Shown piece by piece: positions 51,264-62,768 of a stretch of DNA of 64,000 bases. The notes beneath the pieces were generated by a model. It was not told where the DNA came from. It did not search any database and was given only the letters and a program-made list of their open reading frames with translations. The DNA is taken from NCBI RefSeq assembly GCF_017355915.2, contig NZ_JAFEUV020000002.1:62001-126000 (forward strand). Direction: 5' to 3'. A program made the position numbers and the translations under genes. Source of the DNA: Telluribacter roseus. GTDB taxonomy: Bacteria > Bacteroidota > Bacteroidia > Cytophagales > Spirosomataceae. The stretch's first letter is position 1, and every line of letters begins with the position of its first letter.

Positions 51264-52718
51264 ATGGTTCTTGGCTTGCGTCATGTATTTCATGGTTTAC
51301 TGATGCTGGTGCTGGTGTTGGCACTAGCGGCAGTTATTGCTAAAGGGCAACTATTGGCAGTGGTGGCTTTACTGGGCTTACCGATTGCCACAGGATATAC
51401 GGTGTGGGTGTTCAGGCAGCCGGTAGTAGGGCTGTATTCGGTACTGGTGATCTCTTTTATTGCTATCGGACTGACACGCTACGTATCAGCACCGATAGGA
51501 CTCTCTGTAGATGCCCTGCTGGTACTGACGCTGGTTGCGGAGTTTTTCCGCCGGTTCGAAACGCGGCAGTGGCCATCGCTACGCCGCAATCCGGTGTTGG
51601 CGGTGATCCTGGTATGGGGGGCGTACTGTATACTTGAAATAGCCAATCCCGAGGCCCGTAGTATGGCTGCCTGGTTTTATGCTATGCGTGGGGTGGCCCT
51701 GTACCTGATCCTGACGGTGTGGCTGGTTATGGAGCTGATGGATAATGAAGGGCATTTTAATTGGTTCATAACGATCTGGTTTGGGTGGTCATGCGTGGCC
51801 GCCATATATGGTATGAAGCAATTCTTTTTTGGAGTAGATGCGGCAGAGCAGGCCTGGCTCAATGCCGGCAACGCCTCCACCCATGTGCTGCATGGGCGGC
51901 TGCGGGTGTTCTCGTTCTACTCAGATGCGGGGCAGTATGGAGCCGCTATGGCTCACGCGGGGCTGGCAAGCCTTGTTATGGTTATTGGGGACTTTCCGGT
52001 CCGAAAGCGCCTGTTCTACCTGGTAACGTGCCTGCTGTGCTTTTATGGTATGCTGATATCCGGTACCCGGGGCGCCCTGTTTGTGCCATTGGCTGGCTTC
52101 ACCGCGTATCTGTTCCTGGCGCGCAACTTCAAGCTGCTGATCGTGGGAGGACTTGCCGCCGCCCTGGTATTTGGAATGCTGAAGTTTACCCATATCGGTC
52201 AGAGCAACCATCAGATACAGCGTATGCGGAGCGCCCTTGATCCTAATGATCCGTCGCTGCTGGTCAGGCTTGAAAATCAGAAGAAACTAGGTACTTACCT
52301 GGCCTCTCGTCCCTTAGGGGGAGGAATTGGCTCTGCCGGTTACTGGGGGTTGCGGTTTAGTCCCAATACCCTGCTGGCGCAGACTCCCACTGACAGCTGG
52401 TACGTCAAGATCTGGGCCGAAACAGGCATCATAGGGCTGATACTGCACCTGGGCATGCTCTTGTTTTTCCTCGGCTATTTCTTTATCAAAATCTGGAATA
52501 TGCCCCATATACCTACCCGTCAGCAGTTAATGGCGCTATACGCCGGTGTAACGGGTATTGTTGTGGCCAGCTACGGAAACCAGGTACTGGGCCAGATCCC
52601 GACGGGTACCGTAATGTACATGAGTATTGCCTTCCTGTATTTGCTTACACAGAGTAGTACTCCAACCCATACGCGTGTGCAGGAGCCACCCCTGCTTTTA
52701 CAGCAACTGAAGCATTAA
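51264..52718 (+). CDS. O-antigen ligase/Wzy-type polymerase
   Basis: 484-residue membrane protein with about twelve hydrophobic segments and a large extracytoplasmic loop (about 320-385) containing SRPLGGGIGSAGYWG and TDSWYVKIWAETG, the pattern of the Wzy/WaaL (PF04932-type) superfamily. In this context it most likely polymerises lipid-linked repeat units in the periplasm; ligase activity is the alternative. First gene of a nine-gene plus-strand exopolysaccharide run. Confidence 0.85.
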   Translation: MVLGLRHVFHGLLMLVLVLALAAVIAKGQLLAVVALLGLPIATGYTVWVFRQPVVGLYSVLVISFIAIGLTRYVSAPIGLSVDALLVLTLVAEFFRRFETRQWPSLRRNPVLAVILVWGAYCILEIANPEARSMAAWFYAMRGVALYLILTVWLVMELMDNEGHFNWFITIWFGWSCVAAIYGMKQFFFGVDAAEQAWLNAGNASTHVLHGRLRVFSFYSDAGQYGAAMAHAGLASLVMVIGDFPVRKRLFYLVTCLLCFYGMLISGTRGALFVPLAGFTAYLFLARNFKLLIVGGLAAALVFGMLKFTHIGQSNHQIQRMRSALDPNDPSLLVRLENQKKLGTYLASRPLGGGIGSAGYWGLRFSPNTLLAQTPTDSWYVKIWAETGIIGLILHLGMLLFFLGYFFIKIWNMPHIPTRQQLMALYAGVTGIVVASYGNQVLGQIPTGTVMYMSIAFLYLLTQSSTPTHTRVQEPPLLLQQLKH

Positions 52719-52751: not shown

Positions 52752-53144
52752 ATGAACTCCCCCAAAAGCCTATTAATCATAGATGATGAGCCCAGTACCA
52801 GCAAAGTACTGGAGCATTTTCTGCGGAAAGATTTTCAGGTTGTTACCAAAAGCGATGGAATGGAAGGTATGGCCTGGCTGGAAGAGGGATATAAAGTAGA
52901 TATGATCATTGCCGACCTGAACATGCCCAACCTGAACGGGAAGGAATTTGTAAGAGTGGTAAGGGCCAGCAACCTGTACAACGACATTCCTATCATTATC
53001 CTGTCAGGAACAGATGAGAGCAGTGAGCGGATTCAGTGTCTCAACCTGGGAGCTGATGACTTTATGCTTAAGCCATTTAACCCCATGGAAGTAGTGGCGA
53101 AGGTCAATGCTATACTAAGACGTATCAATCGCTATTCATACTAA
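52752..53144 (+). CDS. Single-domain response regulator
   Basis: 130-residue free receiver with the full active site: D11-D12, phosphoacceptor Asp55 (IIADLNMP), Ser85 and Lys107 (MLKPF). No output domain. Lies 5 bases before the sugar transferase gene, whose N-terminus is a receiver without these residues. The two could interact, making the initiating enzyme respond to phosphorylation (inference); CheY-like action elsewhere is possible. Confidence 0.92.
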   Translation: MNSPKSLLIIDDEPSTSKVLEHFLRKDFQVVTKSDGMEGMAWLEEGYKVDMIIADLNMPNLNGKEFVRVVRASNLYNDIPIIILSGTDESSERIQCLNLGADDFMLKPFNPMEVVAKVNAILRRINRYSY

Positions 53145-53149
53145 CGCTT

Positions 53150-54358
53150 ATGGAGACAGCTACTACCCTTTCGGCATCTAAAGGTGTTTCGGTTATGCCA
53201 GCTTTATTAAGAGTAGTGTATCTTAATAAAGATTATGAGCAAAGCATCAAGTTTATCGAGCGCTTTGGTGATCAGCTCCAGATCGAGTATTTCGATAATA
53301 TGGTGGATGCGCTCAAGATGCTTGAAGACCACTACCCCGCCGACGCAGTAATTGCCAGCCTGGATGCAGGCGGTAAACCCCTGCTGGAGGCCATCCATAA
53401 CAGTCCCTGGCTGCGCAAGATCCCTACCATCCTGACCGTAAATAAAATTACGCCAGAGATGTTAAGAGAAGCCAGGAGGATGAAGGTGGACGATGTGTTT
53501 CCGAGCAATTTTGACCGCGGTGACCTGATGATCCGCCTGCACTACTTTGTGAAGCGGCAGCACTATGCCGCCATGAAGGCTTCGGAGAAAGTATCGGTAC
53601 TGCACGTTCAGACTCCCCTCTGGAAGCGGGCGCTGGATATGACGGTAACGGGCGCCGCCCTGCTGGCTCTGTCGCCTTTGCTACTGATTATTGCCGCGCT
53701 GATCAAGCTGGATTCGCGGGGACCGGTGGTATATAAGTCGAAGCGGGTAGGAGCTGGCTATAAGATATTTGAATTATACAAGTTCCGGACCATGCGTACC
53801 GATGCGGATCAGCTCATCAAGAAGATGGCTTCCCTGAACATGTACAACAAAGAGGAGCTTAAAACGGACCAGAAGCAAATATCCCTCTGCGACCAGTGTA
53901 TGGATAGAGGTACCTGCAGCCACCTGTTGTTTCTGGACGGTGAGCAGGTATGCGAAAAACAGTACCACCAGGAGAAGGAAGCGAAGGCGGCTTTCATGAA
54001 GTTTCAGAATGACCCCCGTATTACCCGCATCGGCCGGTTCCTGCGCAATACCAGCCTGGATGAACTGCCCCAGCTGTACAATATCTTCCGTGGTGATATG
54101 TCGTTGGTGGGCAACCGGCCACTGCCCCTCTACGAGGCCGAAAAGCTTACTACCGATGAGCATATCCTCCGATTTGCAGGACCGGCAGGCCTTACCGGTC
54201 TCTGGCAGGTAACCAAGCGCGGTAAGGGCAAGCAGGAGATGTCCGAAGAGGAGCGTATCAAACTAGATATAACCTATGTGCAGAACTTCTCCTTCCGGAT
54301 GGATCTGAGTATAATCCTGAAAACCATTCCGGCTCTACTACAATCCGAAAATGTATGA
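53150..54358 (+). CDS. Initiating sugar transferase with pseudo-receiver and Cys4 insertion
   Basis: 402 residues. N-terminal half (about 18-125) folds like a receiver but lacks the active site: acidic pair replaced by Tyr24-Leu25, phospho-Asp by Ser70, Lys by Ser119. A membrane segment (about 162-187) leads into a polyprenyl-phosphate glycosylphosphotransferase domain with [18 protein letters not shown] and [10 protein letters not shown], which loads the first sugar phosphate on undecaprenyl phosphate. Between these, C247, C250, C256 and C268 form a zinc-like cluster. M16 is an alternative start. Overlaps the next gene by 4 bases. Confidence 0.88.
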
Positions 54359-55074
54359 GAGGCAGGGGTATTATCGTATGGGCAGTAGCCTTGATTGGGA
54401 GTCTGATGGGAACCGGTGCGTGGGCACAGGCTGGTGCCGATGATGCCGCGGGCCAGTTCATTACGCTTCCACCACTTAAGAAAGTAGTGGATATGGCCAT
54501 CAGGCATGCGCCCTCGGTACGTATGCAGGATGCACATATGAATAAAAGCCTGTACAATGTACAAAGCAAAAAGCGGCAATGGATGGATGGCCTGGGCGTA
54601 GATATGCAACTGGGGCTGGGCAACCAGGCCTTGATCATGCTTCAGCCTACGGGTACTATCGATGCCTATCGTAACTTCAACAACGGGTACCGGGCGGCTT
54701 TCAACGTACGGGTGTCGGCCTATGATCTGCTGGGCCGCAAGAGTGAAATCAAAATGGCGGAATACGAGAGCCAGGAGGCGCTCGAAAAAAAGGAGGCTTC
54801 GGAGCAGGAGGTGGAAATGGTAGTGATTACGAGGTACTATGCTGTACAGGCAGCCCAGGGCCTGCTCAGGATCAAGAGCGAAGCCAAGCAAACTACTCAG
54901 CTCCACCGCCAGATGGCCGAGAAAGAGTTTGCCGAAGGGAGTATTGCCATTGCGGAGCTTTCGCGTGTCATAGAGATATCCTCCAAAGCCGCAGCCGAAT
55001 ATGAAGTAGCCAAGCAGTATTTATATGAAAATATAAAAGTCCTAGAAACGCTGACCGGCCAGAAGCTATACTAA
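54355..55074 (+). CDS. Half-length TolC-like outer-membrane protein
   Basis: 239 residues, about half of a normal TolC. Signal peptide ends AWA followed by Gln; then TolC-like helical and strand segments (LKKVVDMAIRHAPSVRMQDA and a long coiled coil to the end, EIKMAEYESQEALEKKEA). It corresponds to one of the two repeats that make up TolC, so six copies could be needed for a channel, or it may only be a periplasmic adaptor. Frame intact, not a fragment with a nearby remnant. Overlaps the sugar transferase and precedes the Wzc-like gene by 9 bases. Confidence 0.75.
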   Translation: MRGRGIIVWAVALIGSLMGTGAWAQAGADDAAGQFITLPPLKKVVDMAIRHAPSVRMQDAHMNKSLYNVQSKKRQWMDGLGVDMQLGLGNQALIMLQPTGTIDAYRNFNNGYRAAFNVRVSAYDLLGRKSEIKMAEYESQEALEKKEASEQEVEMVVITRYYAVQAAQGLLRIKSEAKQTTQLHRQMAEKEFAEGSIAIAELSRVIEISSKAAAEYEVAKQYLYENIKVLETLTGQKLY

Positions 55075-55083
55075 CAATACGCT

Positions 55084-58000
55084 ATGTCTTTACTCAGGTT
55101 TATACGACTCCTTCTGGATCATAAGTGGCTGTTGGTACTATTCCCGGCGTCGCTGGCCATAGCGGTTTTCTTTTTGACCCGCCATACCAAGCGCGAATAT
55201 GCCGCCAATAGCCTGGTGTATACGGGTCTGGCGTCAGGGTATACGCTGGAGTCAGGTGCCGACCAGCGGATCGACTATTTTGCTGTTAACAATGCCTTTG
55301 ATAATCTGATCAATACCATCAAGGCACGTACCAACCTGGAAGAGGTAGGCATCAGGCTACTGGCCTCCCACCTGATGATGAGAGCGCCGGATAGGGGCGT
55401 AGCCAATGACGAAACCATCAACCACCTTCACCAGGTACTGCCCGAACGGGTCATCAAGGAAGTAGTAGACTATAATTCGCTGAATCAGACCGTAGAGAAT
55501 ATCTACCGCTACTCCCAGATCCCCAAGAATATCATTGCCGAACAGCTGCTTAACAAGAACAATGGGCCTTACAGCGTACGGGGCATCATGTCCAATCTGA
55601 CCGTGGCCCGTGAGGGAACGAGCGACATGGTGAAGATCACCTATACAGCCAATGACCCCGCCGTAGTAAAGCATACGGTAGAGCTGATCACTTCGGTATT
55701 TATGCGCAGGTACCGCGACATGAAAGTAAGCGAAACCAGTAATGTAGTCACGTACTTTGAAGAGCAGCTACGGAAGGCCACTGAGAAGCTGGCCGGATCG
55801 GAAAATAAGCTGAAGGAATTTTCCAGCCAGAATAACATCATCAACTACGATGAGCAAACCCGCAGCATATCGGCGCAGGACCGCGAAATAGAACTGGAAA
55901 TACAGAAGGTGACCTCGGAGCTGCAGGCGTCAAAGGCGGCTCTGAAAGATCTGGAAGGAAAGCTCAGTATCCGGCAGGATATCGCGCTCAAAAACCAGGC
56001 GATGCACTCGCTGCGCGATACGCTGGCCATCCTGAACTCACGATTGGCCATGCTGGAGGTGCAGCCCGAAAGCAGCCAGGCCGATATCCAAAAGCTCAGG
56101 ACTCAGATCGGGCAGTATGAGCATCGCGCTCGCTCGAGTATTACCGATCTGTACGATGCCAATAACTCCAAGAATGGTGTACCCAGTAAGCTGCTGTTCG
56201 CTGACTGGATCGACGCCTTTGTTGGTGTGGATAAGAATGAAGCTCGTCTGCTGGTTCTGAGCGACATCAAGCGCAACCACGGCCGGCACTACAAGCAGAT
56301 GGCCCCGCTGGGATCAGGGCTGAGCCGTCTGGAGCGGGAAATCAATGTGGCCGAGAAAGAATACCTCGAGATACTCCACGGCCTGAACGTAAGTAAGCTC
56401 CGGGAACAAAACCTGCTGCTGTCGACCAACCTGAAAGTTATAGATCCGCCTAAGTTTCCGGCGCAGCCCGAGCCTTCCAAGCGTCTTATACTGGTCATCG
56501 CTGCATTTGTGGTTGGCTTTATGCTGATTATTAGCTATATTATCGGGAAAGAGTACTTTGACTGGTCACTTAAGCGGCCTACCCGCGCCGAAAAGCAGAT
56601 TGGTGTTCCCTTTGTGGGAGGATTGCCTTTGGTAGATACCTCCAAGAGCTATGTCCACTACGGAACCATCGAAGACCGCACCCTCAACCAGTGTGTCGCC
56701 CGGATCAGGCGCATGGCTATGGCTGTTAAGCAGCAGCCGGTGTGGATTCTGGTTTTTAGTGTAAAAGAGGGCACGGGCAAAAGTCATTTTGCGCGGAAGC
56801 TGCAACGAAAACTGACACAGGAGGGGAGCCTTAGCCTCTGGCTGAACCCGGATGGAGAGTCCAATGGGGCGACTGGCGAGTATACCTATCAGTGGCAGCC
56901 TGATCTGGGCGATCTGGAGACGCTGCAGAGCCAAGTGTACGTTGCTAATTGGGAGCAGGTGAAGTTTGTGTTTGTAGAGTTGCCAGCTTTGCTTAATTTT
57001 CCTCTGCTAACGCGATGGGTACAGCAGGCTGGTTTTTCACTACTGGTAGCCGATGCCACCGCCGTTTGGAATACATCGGACCGGTACGCGCTGCAGAACT
57101 ACCTGGATACTTCTGTTGCGCCAGTAGGGCTATTGCTCAACCAGGTCAGGCACGACCAGTTGGAGGAGCTGATCGGCGAGGTACCTCGTGATCGTTCGTC
57201 CTTGCGGCAGTGGCTGAAGCATCTGCTGGTTCCGACGTCAGTCATTCATCAACACCCCGAGAAAAGTAGCAGCACGCAATTATTATATGCAAGTACCTCC
57301 GGTATGTTAACATCACAACCAAACGACTTTGAGGCTCCCAGGCCGAATAATTCAGATCAGGCCACTCCGGACGATGAGGCGTCGGTAGCCAGGAAAAGAC
57401 GTAACCGACGTCGCAAATCATCGCCGCAGAACTGGCTGCTAAGGGGAGCCATGTTTATAGGAATCATCGCAGGGGTTGCCCTGGTATGGTGGATGATCTC
57501 ACCTAACGCCAAGGGACAGAACTTCTGGCTGTACTGGTTCAATAACTCTTCACAAACTACCGAAGAGACTACGAGCAACATGCCCGCGGGCGATGATTCG
57601 TTGTCCGTAAATGGCATAGCACCCATTGATAGCGCTCAGCCATTGGTAGAAGCCGATGCCGGTACAGCTATCCAGGATGACTGGGATGCGGCTCCGGTCC
57701 CGGCTCCGGCACCTGTTGAAAGTAAGCCCCTGGAGGTAAAGCCAGCGGAGCCTGTGGCTAGTGAGGCGGCACCGCCCAAAGCGGCACCGACTAAGGTGGC
57801 ACCAGCTAGGGAGGCACCGGCCAAGGTAGCGCCCGTAGCGGAGAAGCCTGTGGCCGAAAAAGCACCGGCGGCAGAGGGAAAAACAGTATACTATATACAG
57901 GCAGGAAGCTTCAAAGACCGCAACAATGCGGCTTTGCGTCAGCGCGACCTTATGGGCGGCGGATACCGTGCCAAAATTCACGACCCACAGCAGCCGGGAG

Positions 58001-58116
58001 GATATTATACCGTAACGGCTGGTCCTTACCAAAATTTTAAGGTAGCTCAGGACGAGGCTGAATCAATTGGCTTCATTCTTGAGATAAAAACTTCTGTAAT
58101 CAAGAAACAGGAGTAG
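55084..58116 (+). CDS. Wzc-like chain-length protein with C-terminal SPOR domain
   Basis: 1010 residues. First membrane segment about 15-31; periplasmic Wzz-like and coiled-coil part (about 35-455); second segment about 464-486; cytoplasmic ATPase-like domain (about 530-720) with Walker A EGTGKS near 563. Where BY-kinases have a Walker B Asp (IDTPP type) it reads FVFVELPALL, and no C-terminal Tyr cluster exists. A basic stretch RKRRNRRRK precedes a third segment (about 788-806), an Ala/Pro/Lys linker (about 852-930) and a SPOR domain (about 932-1009, YYIQAGSFKDRNNA), which binds denuded peptidoglycan. Kinase activity is doubtful. Confidence 0.87.
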   Translation: MSLLRFIRLLLDHKWLLVLFPASLAIAVFFLTRHTKREYAANSLVYTGLASGYTLESGADQRIDYFAVNNAFDNLINTIKARTNLEEVGIRLLASHLMMRAPDRGVANDETINHLHQVLPERVIKEVVDYNSLNQTVENIYRYSQIPKNIIAEQLLNKNNGPYSVRGIMSNLTVAREGTSDMVKITYTANDPAVVKHTVELITSVFMRRYRDMKVSETSNVVTYFEEQLRKATEKLAGSENKLKEFSSQNNIINYDEQTRSISAQDREIELEIQKVTSELQASKAALKDLEGKLSIRQDIALKNQAMHSLRDTLAILNSRLAMLEVQPESSQADIQKLRTQIGQYEHRARSSITDLYDANNSKNGVPSKLLFADWIDAFVGVDKNEARLLVLSDIKRNHGRHYKQMAPLGSGLSRLEREINVAEKEYLEILHGLNVSKLREQNLLLSTNLKVIDPPKFPAQPEPSKRLILVIAAFVVGFMLIISYIIGKEYFDWSLKRPTRAEKQIGVPFVGGLPLVDTSKSYVHYGTIEDRTLNQCVARIRRMAMAVKQQPVWILVFSVKEGTGKSHFARKLQRKLTQEGSLSLWLNPDGESNGATGEYTYQWQPDLGDLETLQSQVYVANWEQVKFVFVELPALLNFPLLTRWVQQAGFSLLVADATAVWNTSDRYALQNYLDTSVAPVGLLLNQVRHDQLEELIGEVPRDRSSLRQWLKHLLVPTSVIHQHPEKSSSTQLLYASTSGMLTSQPNDFEAPRPNNSDQATPDDEASVARKRRNRRRKSSPQNWLLRGAMFIGIIAGVALVWWMISPNAKGQNFWLYWFNNSSQTTEETTSNMPAGDDSLSVNGIAPIDSAQPLVEADAGTAIQDDWDAAPVPAPAPVESKPLEVKPAEPVASEAAPPKAAPTKVAPAREAPAKVAPVAEKPVAEKAPAAEGKTVYYIQAGSFKDRNNAALRQRDLMGGGYRAKIHDPQQPGGYYTVTAGPYQNFKVAQDEAESIGFILEIKTSVIKKQE

Positions 58117-58121
58117 TACCT

Positions 58122-59363
58122 ATGGCCGCCTATGACATTGTGTGTGTAGCTTTCCCTTCCTGGGAGGGCAACTATGTCAAGAGTACCGTTAAGTTAATGG
58201 AGGAGCTGGCGCAGCGGCACCGGATACTATATATTGATTACCAGTATACCTGGAAAGACGCCCTCATGGGGCTGTTCAAAACCACATCAGTACCCGTTTC
58301 CCGGATGCTTGGGCTCACCAGCCGGCTTCGGGAGGTACAGGTAGGTGATGCCACCGTGCATGTGCTGACACCTCCCCCGGTGTTGCCGGTCAATTTTCTG
58401 AAAAGCACAAAGCTCTATGATGCTATACAGAGGCTCAATGCAGGTATAGTACTACGCTCCATCCGGAAGGCCTACAGTACCTTACATATAGAAGCACCGG
58501 TGGTGATCAATGCTTTCAATCCCTCTCTGGGCGTACCACTCGCGGGGAAGCTGAGCGAGAAGTCGCTGATCTACTACTGCTACGACGAAATAAGTGCCTG
58601 CGCCTGGGCCAAAGACCACGGTGCGCGGTCTGAGGTCCAATATTCGGAGCTGGTAGATGCCATCATAGTTTCGTCGGATGGGTTGTTCAGGAGTAAGCAG
58701 AGGTACGGCAAACCAGCTTTCGTAGTCAACAATGGAGTTGATTTCAACGAATTCCAGAAAGGATATATACCCATTGCTGATAAGCCTGCTGCCAGTGTAA
58801 TCGGCTACGTGGGAAGCATCGATAGCCGGCTGGACTACGATCTGCTGATCAAGCTGGCTCAAAAGCTGCTGGGGCAAAAGCTGATTATGGTGGGGCGCAT
58901 CGTATATGACAAGCCCCACGTAGAGGAAGCGGTCAAGGTACTTAGTGCCATGCCCAATGTTCACTTCACCGGAGCGAAGGCCCCGCATGAGCTTCCGTAC
59001 CTGCTGGCGCAGTTCAACGTAGGATTGATCCCTTTCGTAAAGAATGAGCAGACCGAGGCCATATACCCGATGAAGATCAATGAGTACCTGGCGGCCGGTC
59101 TGCCCGTGGTTAGTACTGATTTTGCTCCACTGGCGGCCTTTCAGGAGGTAGTGGCTGTTACTACTACGCAGGAAGGCTTCATAACCGCCGTGCAGGAAGC
59201 CCTTCAGGATAAATCTGAAAAGGAGGAGCAAAGGCGTGTGGCGCTGGCCCGGCAGCATTCGTGGCAGGAGCGTGCGCATGAGCTGGAGGCCATCATCGAA
59301 AAAGTAATCCATACCCCTGGCAGGCATTCATCACCTGCGCTTGGCTCAGCAGCTCAAGCGTAA
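58122..59363 (+). CDS. Glycosyltransferase, GT4-type
   Basis: 413 residues, GT-B fold. N-terminal acceptor-side domain starts YDIVCVAFPSWEGNYVKS; the C-terminal donor-side domain has VNNGVDF, IGYVGSIDSRLDYDLL and the late PMKINEYLAAGLPVVSTDF, the usual sugar-nucleotide loop. Cytoplasmic, acting on lipid-linked intermediates of the locus. Five bases after the Wzc-like gene; its 3' end overlaps the next gene by 23 bases if that one starts at TTG 59341. Confidence 0.85.
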   Translation: MAAYDIVCVAFPSWEGNYVKSTVKLMEELAQRHRILYIDYQYTWKDALMGLFKTTSVPVSRMLGLTSRLREVQVGDATVHVLTPPPVLPVNFLKSTKLYDAIQRLNAGIVLRSIRKAYSTLHIEAPVVINAFNPSLGVPLAGKLSEKSLIYYCYDEISACAWAKDHGARSEVQYSELVDAIIVSSDGLFRSKQRYGKPAFVVNNGVDFNEFQKGYIPIADKPAASVIGYVGSIDSRLDYDLLIKLAQKLLGQKLIMVGRIVYDKPHVEEAVKVLSAMPNVHFTGAKAPHELPYLLAQFNVGLIPFVKNEQTEAIYPMKINEYLAAGLPVVSTDFAPLAAFQEVVAVTTTQEGFITAVQEALQDKSEKEEQRRVALARQHSWQERAHELEAIIEKVIHTPGRHSSPALGSAAQA

Positions 59364-60693
59364 TATACCCTCGTACTGGCATCAACCCTTAACTCTATCC
59401 GTATTCTTGACATTAAAAGTTCTGCTCCATAACCCCCGCCTGCTTTCCCTGGTCGGAGTGGGTGTCAGTGCGGCCTCCGGTTTTCTGGGGGTGATGGTGC
59501 TGGCCCGAATCCTTACACCAGGCGAACTGGGTACCTGGATCCTGTACCTGGCGGTATGGACCTTCCTGGATATGCTCAGGTCGGGGCTTGTACATACGGC
59601 CCTGGTGCGTTACTACGCCGCCTCCCACGATAGCCGCTACACCGGTGCTGCCTGGGCCATCAGCGGTGCTTTTACCATACTAGTGAGCGTACTATTGGGG
59701 GGAGCAGGACTGATGGGGCTAGAGCTTTCGGATGAATGGCGACTGGTGCTACCACAACTACCCTGGCTGCTGCTGGCTACCTGGCCCTACAGCGTGGCAC
59801 TCTGGCAGCGGCAGGCCGAGAATCGCTTCGATCATATTCTGCGGCTGCGGCTGGGTTTTACCTTGCCGTTCCTGGCATTTGTAGCGCTGGGATTCTGGTA
59901 CAACTGGTCGCTCGAAAGCATTGCCTGGGTACAGACCCTACTATACCTGCTGGTTTCGCTGGGTGCCGTTGCGGCCGGGTGGACGCACTGGCAGGCACTG
60001 AGGACTTTCAAGATGCAGCAGGTACGTGAGCTCTGGAGCTTTGGGCGGTACACCATCGGCACGCTGCTATGTACCAATCTTCTCAAAAGCTCCGATACCT
60101 TCCTGATTGGCTATTACCTTTCTTCGGCCGTGGTGGCTGCCTATAATCTGCCTTACAAGCTGATCGAGATCGTTGAGATCCCGCTCCGCAGCGTCATGGC
60201 TACCTTACTCCCACAGCTTTCGCAACTGCAGTACGGTGATAGGAAGAGCATGGAACAGGCCAAAGCTTTATTCTTCAAAGAACTCAAGCTACTGACGCTG
60301 GTACTGGTGCCGGTGAGTGTCCTGTGCTTTTTCCTGGCCGAACCCCTGGTGGTACTATTGGGAGGTGAAGCCTACCGTGAGTCAGCTATTCTGCTGCAGG
60401 TATTTGCGGTGTACAGCCTCCTTCTGCCGGCCGACCGGCTCATCGGCGTCACGCTCGACAGCCTGGGGCGGCCCCGCTTCAATACCATTAAGGTGGTACT
60501 GATGGCCGTATTCAACATCATTGGAGATATAGTAGTCCTGCACGTCTGGGCTGATCCCGTACCGGTGGCTGTCGTAACGATCGGTACGGTGGTACTTGGG
60601 GTGGTGTTTGGTGGAGTGGTTCTGAGAAGTGTATTTGATAGTGAAGTGTCCGGGGCAGAGGCCGAAAGTAAAGTACTGTCGGCTGCCTCGTAG
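59341..60693 (+). CDS. Wzx-type polysaccharide flippase
   Basis: 450-residue membrane protein of the MOP superfamily (polysaccharide transporter), with about twelve to fourteen hydrophobic segments and GVMVLARILTPGELGTW early on. It would flip undecaprenyl-linked repeat units across the inner membrane for the polymerase at 51264. No ATG exists near the beginning of the hydrophobic region until after the first segment, so a TTG start (59341 or 59407) is likely; 59341 overlaps the preceding gene by 23 bases. Confidence 0.85.
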   Translation: MAQQLKRNIPSYWHQPLTLSVFLTLKVLLHNPRLLSLVGVGVSAASGFLGVMVLARILTPGELGTWILYLAVWTFLDMLRSGLVHTALVRYYAASHDSRYTGAAWAISGAFTILVSVLLGGAGLMGLELSDEWRLVLPQLPWLLLATWPYSVALWQRQAENRFDHILRLRLGFTLPFLAFVALGFWYNWSLESIAWVQTLLYLLVSLGAVAAGWTHWQALRTFKMQQVRELWSFGRYTIGTLLCTNLLKSSDTFLIGYYLSSAVVAAYNLPYKLIEIVEIPLRSVMATLLPQLSQLQYGDRKSMEQAKALFFKELKLLTLVLVPVSVLCFFLAEPLVVLLGGEAYRESAILLQVFAVYSLLLPADRLIGVTLDSLGRPRFNTIKVVLMAVFNIIGDIVVLHVWADPVPVAVVTIGTVVLGVVFGGVVLRSVFDSEVSGAEAESKVLSAAS

Positions 60694-60715: not shown

Positions 60716-61591
60716 ATGCACCCTCTGGTATCTGTTATTACCGTCAACTATAATCAGCCGCAGGTCACGGCGGAGCTGCTCCGTAGCCTGTGCCACATTA
60801 CCTACCCCAACGTGGAGGTATGGGTAGTGGACAACGCCAGCCCCCGGCAGGGGGTGGATGAGCTGATCCCTATCTTCCCAGAAGTACACTTTCTGAAGAG
60901 TAGTACCAACCTGGGCTTTGCCGGCGGCAATAACCTGGCCGTGCGCCAGGCCCGGGGTAAGTACCTGCTTTTTCTGAACAACGACACCGAGGTACCTCCG
61001 GGCTTTCTGGAGCCACTGGTTGAGCGGATGGAGGCCGATCCGCAGATTGGTATGGTCAGTCCCAAGATTAAGTACTACTACGAAGATAACCTGATCCAGT
61101 ATGCCGGCAGTACGGAGATCAATCCGCTGACCGGGCGGGGGCATTTTATCGGGCACAGGCAGCCGGATGACGGGAGCTTTTCCAGGAGCGGTCAGACGGC
61201 CTACGTACACGGAGCGGCCATGCTTGTGTCAAGGGCGGTCCTGGAGAAGACGGGTCTCATGGATGATACCTACTTCCTGTACTACGAGGAGCTGGACTGG
61301 TGTGCCCGGGCCCGTCGCGATGGTTTTGGCGTATGGTACGTAGCCGAGTCGGAGATCTTACATAAGGAGTCAGTTTCGACCGGAAAGCAAAGCACTCTGA
61401 AAGTATACTACCAGACCCGTAACCGTATATTGTTTATACGCCGCAATTACCGAAGCTGGCAGCGTATGGCCGGTTTGATGTTCTTTTCCTGTATTTCAAT
61501 TCCTAAAAATAGTCTTACCTACCTCCTCAAAAAACGCTGGGACTACCTGTCTGCCTTCTGGCGGGGCGTAACCTGGCACCTTACCCACTGA
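60716..61591 (+). CDS. Glycosyltransferase family 2, rhamnosyltransferase-like
   Basis: 291-residue GT-A enzyme: VSVITVNYNQPQVTAELL, VVDNASPRQG, FAGGNNLAVRQARG and LFLNNDTEVPPGFL are the pattern of the WcaA/rhamnosyltransferase branch. Later YYEELDWCARARRDG contains the likely catalytic acidic residue. Cytoplasmic. Follows the flippase gene by 22 bases and is 4 bases before the next gene. Confidence 0.88.
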   Translation: MHPLVSVITVNYNQPQVTAELLRSLCHITYPNVEVWVVDNASPRQGVDELIPIFPEVHFLKSSTNLGFAGGNNLAVRQARGKYLLFLNNDTEVPPGFLEPLVERMEADPQIGMVSPKIKYYYEDNLIQYAGSTEINPLTGRGHFIGHRQPDDGSFSRSGQTAYVHGAAMLVSRAVLEKTGLMDDTYFLYYEELDWCARARRDGFGVWYVAESEILHKESVSTGKQSTLKVYYQTRNRILFIRRNYRSWQRMAGLMFFSCISIPKNSLTYLLKKRWDYLSAFWRGVTWHLTH

Positions 61592-61595
61592 TCTT

Positions 61596-62768
61596 ATGGA
61601 ATTTATCACTGCTTTGGCTTACCTGCTCTTTAGCGCTACTGCATTCGTAACGCTCTATCTGTTTGTATTTGCCGTTGCCGGCTTATTCAGAAAACCTGCT
61701 GCCTACCATCCCAGAAATAGCCGGAGACTACGCAAAACGGCTGTTTTTCTGCCTTCTTATAAGGAAGATGCAGTAATCGTAGACTCCGCAATGCGTGCCC
61801 TTGAACAGTGTTATCCCAAGTCTCTTTTTGAAGTAGTAGTTATTGCGGATTCGCTTCAGCCTGCCACGCTGGCTAAGCTACGGGCTCTGCCCATCAAGCT
61901 GGTAGAGGTAGTATTTGAAACTTCTACCAAATCTAAGGCACTCAATGCGGCTTTGCAGCAACTGGATGATCAGTTTGAGATAGCGGTTATACTGGATGCC
62001 GACAATGTAATGGCCCCTGACTTTCTGAATCGGGTAAATCAGGCTATGGAGCAGGGGTGGAAGGTCGTGCAGGGGCATCGAACCGCTAAAAATACCAATA
62101 CCGGTACGGCTATACTGGATGCAGTCAGTGAGGAGATCAACAACCATATATTCCGTAGAGGACACCGGGTACTGGGGCTTTCGTCGGCCCTGATCGGATC
62201 CGGAATGGCCTTTGACTTCAGTCTCTTCAAAGGACTGATGAGCGAGATCCAGGCCATTGGCGGATTTGATAAGGAGCTGGAGATGCGTCTGCTCAAGCAA
62301 CGTATCCGGATTGAATATCTGGACGAAGCACTCTGCTATGATGAAAAGGTACAGAATGCTGCCGTATTTGAAAAGCAGCGAACCCGCTGGATCGCGGCCC
62401 AGATCAAGTACCTGCGGCTCAACTTTGTGCCTGGTCTACTGCACCTGCTTAAGGGTAATATTGATTATTTTGACAAGGTTCTGCAAACGATGCTCCCGCC
62501 ACGCGTAATGTTATTAGGTGGCCTGGTAGGAGCCACCTTGCTGGTTTGGCTTATGTGGGGATTCAGTGTACTGTCGTGGTTTGTGACGGCTCAGCTGGCC
62601 ATGCTTGTGGCTACTTTTTATATAGCTACTCCCGCTGAACTCCGGCAGAAGCTGGGTTGGCGGGAGGTCAGCCAGGTACCGGCTCTTTTCATCCGTTTCT
62701 TCAAATCCATTCTTAAAATAGGCGAAGCACAGAAGAAGTTTATCCATACTCCGCATGGTACCGAATAA
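61596..62768 (+). CDS. Membrane glycosyltransferase family 2
   Basis: 390 residues: one N-terminal membrane segment, GT-A core with VAVFLPSYKED-type start, ILDADNVMAPDF for the metal site and the processive-type motif QRTRW, then C-terminal membrane segments (about 300-345). The processive signature resembles HasA/cellulose-synthase relatives, but with few membrane passes. Ends 2 bases before the convergent last gene. Confidence 0.85.
   Translation: MEFITALAYLLFSATAFVTLYLFVFAVAGLFRKPAAYHPRNSRRLRKTAVFLPSYKEDAVIVDSAMRALEQCYPKSLFEVVVIADSLQPATLAKLRALPIKLVEVVFETSTKSKALNAALQQLDDQFEIAVILDADNVMAPDFLNRVNQAMEQGWKVVQGHRTAKNTNTGTAILDAVSEEINNHIFRRGHRVLGLSSALIGSGMAFDFSLFKGLMSEIQAIGGFDKELEMRLLKQRIRIEYLDEALCYDEKVQNAAVFEKQRTRWIAAQIKYLRLNFVPGLLHLLKGNIDYFDKVLQTMLPPRVMLLGGLVGATLLVWLMWGFSVLSWFVTAQLAMLVATFYIATPAELRQKLGWREVSQVPALFIRFFKSILKIGEAQKKFIHTPHGTE

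Follow-up and report, generated by a model that had tools for sequence, protein, structure and literature searches.

What does a peptidoglycan-binding domain do at the end of a polysaccharide co-polymerase? The question arises from a gene at positions 55,084 to 58,116 of the 64,000-nucleotide stretch of Telluribacter roseus DNA analyzed here (the window), which lies on contig NZ_JAFEUV020000002.1 (contig C2 of genome G000). T. roseus is a soil bacterium, and its genus belongs to the Spirosomataceae, in the Bacteroidota. The encoded protein, P0001, is part of an exopolysaccharide (EPS) gene cluster and carries, beyond the two membrane segments and P-loop domain of a Wzc/PslE-like co-polymerase, a third transmembrane (TM) segment, a long linker and a SPOR domain (Table 1). 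Wzc-type proteins normally end in a cytoplasmic kinase domain with a Tyr cluster, and SPOR domains bind peptidoglycan glycan stripped of its side peptides. On balance, we favor the view that P0001 is a PslE/Wzc-type co-polymerase of a Wzy-dependent EPS system with an added single-pass TM-SPOR module that tethers export to the wall.

Anatomy and predicted topology of P0001

Only three stretches of P0001 reach a mean hydropathy of at least 1.6 over 19 residues (starting at residues 13-16, 464-474 and 783-791). AlphaFold models from two inputs, the full protein with 44 relatives and the tail with 12, concur in placing helices at residues 14-31, 467-491 and 782-805, a P-loop fold at 553-688 and a disordered linker. 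Among the three Pfam families named in the initial annotation, SPOR (PF05036) matched residues 934-994 above its cut-off (34.0 versus 21 bits, E 3.9e-8), and Wzz (PF02706, residues 2-88, 19.5 versus 25.5 bits) and GNVR (PF13807, residues 415-490, 22 versus 27.7 bits) stayed below theirs. The NCBIfam FtsN model TIGR02223 also matched residues 866-987 below cut-off (33.8 versus 107.65 bits, E 2.6e-8).

Residues 934-1009 are predicted to adopt the beta-alpha-beta-beta-alpha-beta, RNP-like fold of SPOR domains, with predicted local distance difference test (pLDDT) values over residues 935-1010 of 91-97 when the tail was modelled alone and 88-97 when the whole protein was. The initial annotation had placed a SPOR domain at residues 932-1009 and a membrane helix near residues 790-806, and the predicted structure of the tail contains both. 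In a Foldseek search with the tail model, DedD (6ztg, E 7.7e-5) and CwlC (1x60, TM-score 0.81 on the target, root mean square deviation 1.5) ranked first and RlpA (6i09 and 6i05) fifth and sixth. VIA-align gave Z scores of 11.8 for CwlC, 11.7 for BPSS2145, 11.0 and 10.9 for RlpA and 8.3 for DedD, followed by a next value of 6.7, FtsN at 6.5 and DamX at 5.8. A phmmer search of the PDB with the SPOR part alone found no match; a profile search of the PDB did. FtsN and DedD consist of a basic stretch, one membrane segment, a long linker and a C-terminal SPOR domain. The P0001 tail shares this layout with FtsN/DedD/DamX-type proteins and differs from them in being joined to a co-polymerase encoded among EPS genes.

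The SPOR domain should lie in the periplasm, because the P-loop domain sits between segments 2 and 3. The distribution of Lys and Arg around segment 3, 9 in the 20 residues before it and 1 in the 20 after, likewise indicates that the C-terminus should face the periplasm. These data would put the basic patch on the cytoplasmic side and agree with the return of the chain to the periplasm that had first been proposed for this protein. The Ala/Pro/Lys linker noted at the same time (residues 807-933) is disordered in the models. Across ten tail-bearing rows, 4-9 Lys/Arg precede the third segment and 1-5 follow it. The bias holds in nine of the ten, the sole exception being L036 (4 before, 5 after). 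An assembly artefact as the source of the joined frame was ruled out, as T. humicola KCTC 42819 has a gene with the identical joined frame and 78-79% identity across its whole length.

The architecture is rare and was probably built at least twice

A survey of how often the fusion occurs, which the initial annotation had suggested, found the full architecture in 7 of 222 Spirosomataceae genomes, the seven belonging to five genera, using a profile of seven full fusions and checking each for SPOR. These genomes are G000 and G015 (T. humicola) of genus g1, G024 (g24), G001 and G065 (g2), G036 (g36) and G005 (g6). The matches listed for an order-wide sample (390 genomes) and a class-wide sample (395 genomes), both overlapping the family set, included no additional fusion. 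In each genome only the best candidates were scored (at most three in the family search and two in the order and class searches), so fusions could be missed.

Several apparent variants were resolved on inspection. A frameshift in G024 was ruled out, the split match being one open frame of 971 residues, and the 897 open frame of G503 was discarded since its open reading frame (ORF) has 711 residues. The long co-polymerases of family f82 (L122, L127, L128 and L129; 914-933 residues) have no tail: they end with the P-loop domain, and their extra length, ~190 residues near residue 125, is an insert in the periplasmic part. Among the papers listed in literature searches on SPOR, Wzc/PslE, EPS and capsule, CCDC81, gliding and Bacteroidota, none described SPOR fused to such a co-polymerase; all the parts are already known, and their combination did not come up in these searches.

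In a tree of the co-polymerase cores, tail-bearing rows occupy two positions far apart, separated by tailless rows. A single clade of all ten tail-bearing cores was rejected by the approximately unbiased (AU) test (p 2e-77, log-likelihood difference 654; 10 of 81 rows), in a quick tree from which near-copies and distant and insert-bearing rows had been left out. What this test excludes is one clade; one very old gain with many losses, or transfer of the tail, would pass it. One common origin for the tails of g1, g24 and g2 was not rejected (p 0.062).

The tails themselves point to two types of donor. Outside the fusions, the g1, g24 and g2 tails find their best BLAST matches in TM-SPOR proteins. 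By contrast, residues 13-171 of the G036 tail match residues 177-352 of a G112 protein of HU-CCDC81-SPOR type, membrane segment included (E 2.6e-19), and the best match of the G005 tail is a protein of this type from G051, over linker and SPOR domain (E 7e-21). In the SPOR tree the G005 fused domain groups among HU-CCDC81-SPOR-type rows (support 85/77), and that of G036 lies in an open fork. The SPOR trees rest on 77-79 columns, the one cited here on 30 rows, and since a hidden Markov model built from the tails chose their rows, they include almost no SPOR domains of RlpA or lipoproteins. Pfam confirmed the HU-CCDC81 domains of L003 and L146; the other HU-SPOR rows were labelled by length. These Bacteroidota proteins resemble the fusions in ending in SPOR after a membrane-like stretch and are the best BLAST relatives of the G036 and G005 tails outside the fusions. 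They differ in having HU-CCDC81 domains where the fusions have the co-polymerase, and they are not nearest to the Telluribacter tail. One of them, encoded in the T. roseus genome itself (L003:583-1734, contig C10) and of the donor type of the G036 and G005 tails, could tie DNA to the wall.

The tail-bearing cores do not form one clade and the tails seem to come from two donor types, which makes two or more separate builds, from different donors, probable. That the same architecture seems to have been made repeatedly argues that the link between its parts is useful; this, the main argument for a function, is one from pattern and draws on short alignments and quick trees.

Free relatives of the Telluribacter tail follow clpC in sister genera

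In four genomes (G003, G017, G011 and G013) we found a free protein, 226-286 residues long as called, in which a basic or polar stretch, a membrane helix, a linker and a SPOR domain follow one another. All four align with the P0001 tail and share a common motif after the helix, and their genes lie immediately 3′ of clpC. In both Telluribacter genomes clpC is followed directly by a short-chain dehydrogenase gene with no TM-SPOR gene between. The same dehydrogenase gene follows the TM-SPOR gene in G003, in G013 as judged from its opening letters, and in G017 after one further ORF. G024 has no TM-SPOR gene behind clpC. Each of the seven genomes examined from the clade g1/g24/g4/g12/g14/g17 has one such module: three carry it as a fusion and four as a free protein encoded behind clpC.

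A profile built from six sequences, all four free proteins and two of the fused tails, was run against the 222 genomes; these six match by construction. It returned its own members and G015 at E 1.1e-72 or better, then a contig-edge piece of G128 (5.5e-24), the g2 fused tails (4.9e-19 and 9.4e-17) and weak matches, most of which covered only SPOR. In the SPOR tree one group (support 99/98) unites the four free domains with the three fused ones. In a quick ClpC tree (16/17 rows, G037 left out), these genera fall in one clade with the four free-protein genera nested inside the fused ones, so either direction would fit and fission from a fused ancestor appears as possible as fusion.

G005, one of the genomes with a fusion, also encodes a free TM-SPOR protein of 188 residues (L167:5146-5712), beside genes for an EPS-type response regulator and a receiver/Bac_transf protein. 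In the SPOR tree this protein clusters with the g2 tails and with a 163-residue protein of G112 (support 96/96). No co-polymerase was found near it in the 11 kb read, and a co-polymerase remnant in the adjoining gap was ruled out (best tblastn E 1.3). Judged by these comparisons, the tail is a portable module, and that of Telluribacter is homologous to the free TM-SPOR proteins of sister genera.

Glycan-contact residues and selection on the tail

The excerpted text of PMC6895207 describes RlpA Gln270, the equivalent of FtsN Gln251, as a key glycan contact, together with an Arg patch and backbone contacts. When a HMMER alignment of the tail profile with FtsN is read across to P0001, Gln939, Ser942 and Tyr974 stand at FtsN Q251, S254 and W283, positions that the same excerpt lists as important for septal localization; R285 is matched by Thr976, which leaves the support from the contact residues mixed. 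The key Gln is found in two of the seven fusions, both from Telluribacter; the four free TM-SPOR proteins have Lys, Asn, Asn and Lys in its place.

Between the two Telluribacter genomes the ratio of nonsynonymous to synonymous substitution rates (dN/dS) is 0.09-0.10 for the core, 0.30 for the cytoplasmic linker, 0.06 for TM3, 0.14 for the periplasmic linker and 0.20 for SPOR. Between G000 and G024 it is 0.12 up to the second segment and 0.50 for TM3, with saturation elsewhere. These Nei-Gojobori values are rough, as dS is high for several parts.

The P-loop domain departs from that of a canonical bacterial tyrosine kinase

In a profile search of solved structures, PslE, the Psl co-polymerase of Pseudomonas (PDB 9v6l and 9v75), was nearest to P0001 (E 7e-20) and Wzc next (E 1.5e-12); in the Foldseek search with the full-length model, rows 1-28 were Wzc chains without exception. 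The label Wzc-like, given to P0001 at the outset, therefore describes its overall fold, with two TM segments around a helical periplasmic part, and needs qualifying in that PslE is the nearest solved structure by profile and that the P-loop domain has neither the first A′ Asp nor the Walker B Asp. The match to PslE takes in the periplasmic part and TM2 and runs into the first part of the P-loop domain; the Walker A region of PslE (GEGVT) is altered too. The matched PslE chains are shorter, at 662-670 residues. As far as the excerpt of PMC6813494 goes, PslE belongs to a biofilm EPS system, is homologous to Wzc and has the Wza-like PslD as its partner, whereas the neighbor of P0001 is an OEP protein.

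Of 45 aligned sequences, 40 retain the Lys of Walker A and 42 its Ser/Thr. The first A′ Asp column (588, in the register of the HMMER alignment with Wzc) holds Asp in none of the 45, the second (590) in nine, P0001 included, and the Walker B Asp column holds Glu in 42. Pfam AAA_31 does not match P0001, whereas it does match L236 of the same genome. Between residues 690 and 780, P0001 has a single Tyr (735) and hence no C-terminal Tyr cluster. The same is true of its tailless relatives: the last 40 residues contain no Tyr in 32, one in 25, two in 17 and three in 3 of 77 tailless rows (12 of 89 rows were omitted from this count: nine tail-bearing ones, L042, L044 and L079). For comparison, four ORFs at Wzc loci of the T. 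roseus genome contain, as extracted, 9, 9, 7 and 3 Tyr. Since tailless relatives also lack the cluster, replacement of a Tyr cluster by SPOR was ruled out. Compared with Wzc, the bacterial tyrosine kinase (BY-kinase) co-polymerase of E. coli, P0001 thus shares the overall fold and differs in the missing first A′ Asp, the Walker B Glu, the missing Tyr cluster, the lack of a Wza-type gene on the contig and the added TM3-SPOR. From its motifs the P-loop domain is non-canonical, not that of a normal BY-kinase, and it has probably lost kinase activity and with it autophosphorylation. In G207 the co-polymerase is encoded as two overlapping genes (L220:7884-9918), one of 568 residues and a separate P-loop piece of 132 residues, with 57% identity to P0001 over residues 1-550.

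The surrounding EPS gene cluster

The gene of P0001 lies in a cluster with the order Wzy_C, response regulator, receiver-like/Bac_transf, OEP, co-polymerase, glycosyltransferase, Wzx, GT2, GT2 (Table 1).

Table 1. Features of P0001 and of the genes around it, in window coordinates
Feature	Coordinates	Strand	Basis or remark
Wzc/PslE-like co-polymerase with third TM segment and SPOR (P0001)	55084..58116	+	1010 residues, stop in coordinates; ATG-to-stop open frame
Membrane segment 1, residues 14-32	55123..55179	+	Hydropathy; AlphaFold helix 14-31
Periplasmic part, long helices/coiled coil, residues 33-466	55180..56481	+	Pfam, AlphaFold; GNVR-like 415-490
Membrane segment 2, residues 467-491	56482..56556	+	AlphaFold helix, hydropathy
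Cytoplasmic P-loop domain, residues 492-715	56557..57228	+	Walker A 559-569 kept; first A′ Asp replaced by Asn588; Walker B Asp replaced by Glu632
Basic stretch ahead of membrane segment 3, residues 768-787	57385..57444	+	9 Lys/Arg in 20
Membrane segment 3, residues 782-806	57427..57501	+	AlphaFold helix 782-805; hydropathy
Disordered Ala/Pro/Lys-rich periplasmic linker, residues 807-933	57502..57882	+	pLDDT <50 over most
SPOR domain, residues 934-1009, Gln939 within YYIQAGSF	57883..58110	+	Pfam and fold comparison
Wzy/ligase-like membrane protein (Wzy_C)	51264..52718	+	Pfam
Single-domain response regulator	52752..53144	+	Pfam
Initiating sugar transferase (Bac_transf), receiver-like N-terminus	53150..54358	+	Pfam
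Half-length TolC-like OEP protein, 239 residues, one OEP repeat, directly upstream of co-polymerase	54355..55074	+	Pfam OEP
Glycosyltransferase (group 1 type)	58122..59363	+	Start 5 bases past co-polymerase stop
Wzx-like flippase	59341..60693	+	Pfam
Two GT2 glycosyltransferases, same cluster	60716..62768	+	Pfam

An OEP-like gene stands immediately 5′ of the co-polymerase gene in 11 of 11 relatives' loci (L004 and L047-L056). L004, L047, L053 and L056 have the same cluster order as Telluribacter, some with an additional gene. The g2 loci L048-L050 have no Wzx match within the stretch, and L049 and L050 have none for the single-domain regulator either. The loci L051, L052, L054 and L055 (G036, G005, G046 and G051) are of another type, with no response regulator or Bac_transf gene beside the co-polymerase and a different order of the downstream genes. 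These gene lists come from a greedy choice of ORFs, in which a gene may hide under a longer ORF.

Poly_export (Wza) has no match on contig C2, so that a half-length TolC-type protein stands where Wza would be expected; with five matches elsewhere in the genome (C5, C8, C16, C25 and C26), a distant partner may exist. Six copies of the half-TolC protein could in principle build a TolC-like tube. Four of the five Poly_export matches (C8, C16, C25 and C26) lie 2-3.5 kb from Wzc matches, three of which are above the NCBIfam cut-off and one just below. Three of these pairs have Tyr-rich tails and one has 3 Tyr as extracted. By these matches, the organism has several Wza/Wzc systems besides the one described here. 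The receiver-like N-terminus of the Bac_transf protein, next to a single-domain response regulator, suggests possible direct two-component control of the start of EPS synthesis. A scan for promoters and terminators found 5 and 7 sites, compared with averages of 2.5 and 3.0 in shuffled sequence, and its result was set aside.

Discussion

In the model that we infer, which comprises at least two independent fusions, oligomerization, glycan binding, tethering and a place in the cell, the two usual membrane segments and the coiled-coil part would form an oligomeric periplasmic co-polymerase ring in the inner membrane, by analogy with Wzc. The third helix would take the chain back out, leaving the SPOR domain to hang on a linker of ~125 residues in the periplasm. 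Because SPOR binds glycan stripped of side peptides, up to one such domain per subunit could hold the export machine to the wall, and the machine would probably be enriched where amidases strip the glycan, at the septum and at remodelling sites. The ring would work without phosphorylation control.

Several observations weigh against tethering. In P0001 Thr976 occupies the position of FtsN R285, so that the Arg used by RlpA and FtsN, as described in the PMC6895207 excerpt, is not kept. At the Gln position, the remaining five fused domains carry Leu, Ile, Tyr, Ile and Ile (L013, L014, L017, L036 and L040), which makes glycan binding plausible in the Telluribacter fusions and less certain in the others. 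TM3 is poorly conserved between G000 and G024, with 19% identity in an unsure alignment. The majority of relatives have no tail, and the free module is located away from EPS genes in four sister genera. Finally, three g2 genomes (G037, G052 and G077) have the third segment and no SPOR, their proteins of 876 residues all ending RQKEIQP; room for a SPOR remnant in G037 was ruled out, the next called ORF beginning 27 bases on.

The most serious alternative, which we regard as unlikely, holds that the TM-SPOR module retains an older function in the wall or in division, as in FtsN or DedD, with the co-polymerase a mere carrier and the tie to EPS incidental or a means of co-expression. This would explain why each of the seven genomes of the clade examined keeps a single module, whether fused or behind clpC, why G005 carries a free module in an EPS stretch showing no co-polymerase, and why the co-polymerase stays in the three g2 genomes where SPOR is absent. 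However, a second type of SPOR donor was seemingly joined to another co-polymerase in G036 and G005, which would demand a second coincidence. The free module of G005 also lies beside EPS genes, and such modules occur in few of the 222 genomes, which speaks against a general necessity.

It is improbable that the SPOR domain instead binds the exported polysaccharide, or helps to align a half-TolC exit through the wall, and does not read denuded peptidoglycan as a place marker. The lack of a Wza-type gene on the contig, the OEP-like gene directly upstream in all 11 relatives' loci and the loss of the Arg would suit such a role. Against it, Gln939 and the predicted sheet of the Telluribacter SPOR domain match known peptidoglycan binders, and the known SPOR proteins are said, in the excerpted part of PMC6895207, to act in division or morphogenesis. 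Least probable of all is a neutral fusion whose tail has no role or stays in the cytoplasm: the rarity of the fusion (7 of 222 genomes), the absence of SPOR in three g2 genomes, the missing charge bias of L036 and the little-conserved TM3 between G000 and G024 would allow it, and dN/dS of 0.06-0.20 over TM3 and SPOR between G000 and G015, the excess of Lys/Arg before the third segment in nine of ten rows (9 versus 1 in P0001) and the scattering of tail-bearing cores over more than one clade speak against it.

Tethering to peptidoglycan is thus the best explanation of the P0001 tail and a fair one, strengthened by the evidence for more than one fusion event. A broader proposal, which we make tentatively, is that the Spirosomataceae repeatedly joined SPOR modules from at least two donors to pseudokinase EPS co-polymerases, directing export to sites of wall cleavage such as the septum; a positional signal derived from the wall might then stand in place of control by Tyr phosphorylation. 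The fusion bears on how Gram-negative bacteria position, relative to the wall, the machines that export capsule and EPS. P0001 marks a group of co-polymerases worth study, with a degenerate P-loop, a half-TolC neighbor and no Wza nearby. A natural fusion of a co-polymerase and a wall-binding domain, apparently made more than once, would offer a testable handle on the site of export, chain length and attachment to the envelope.

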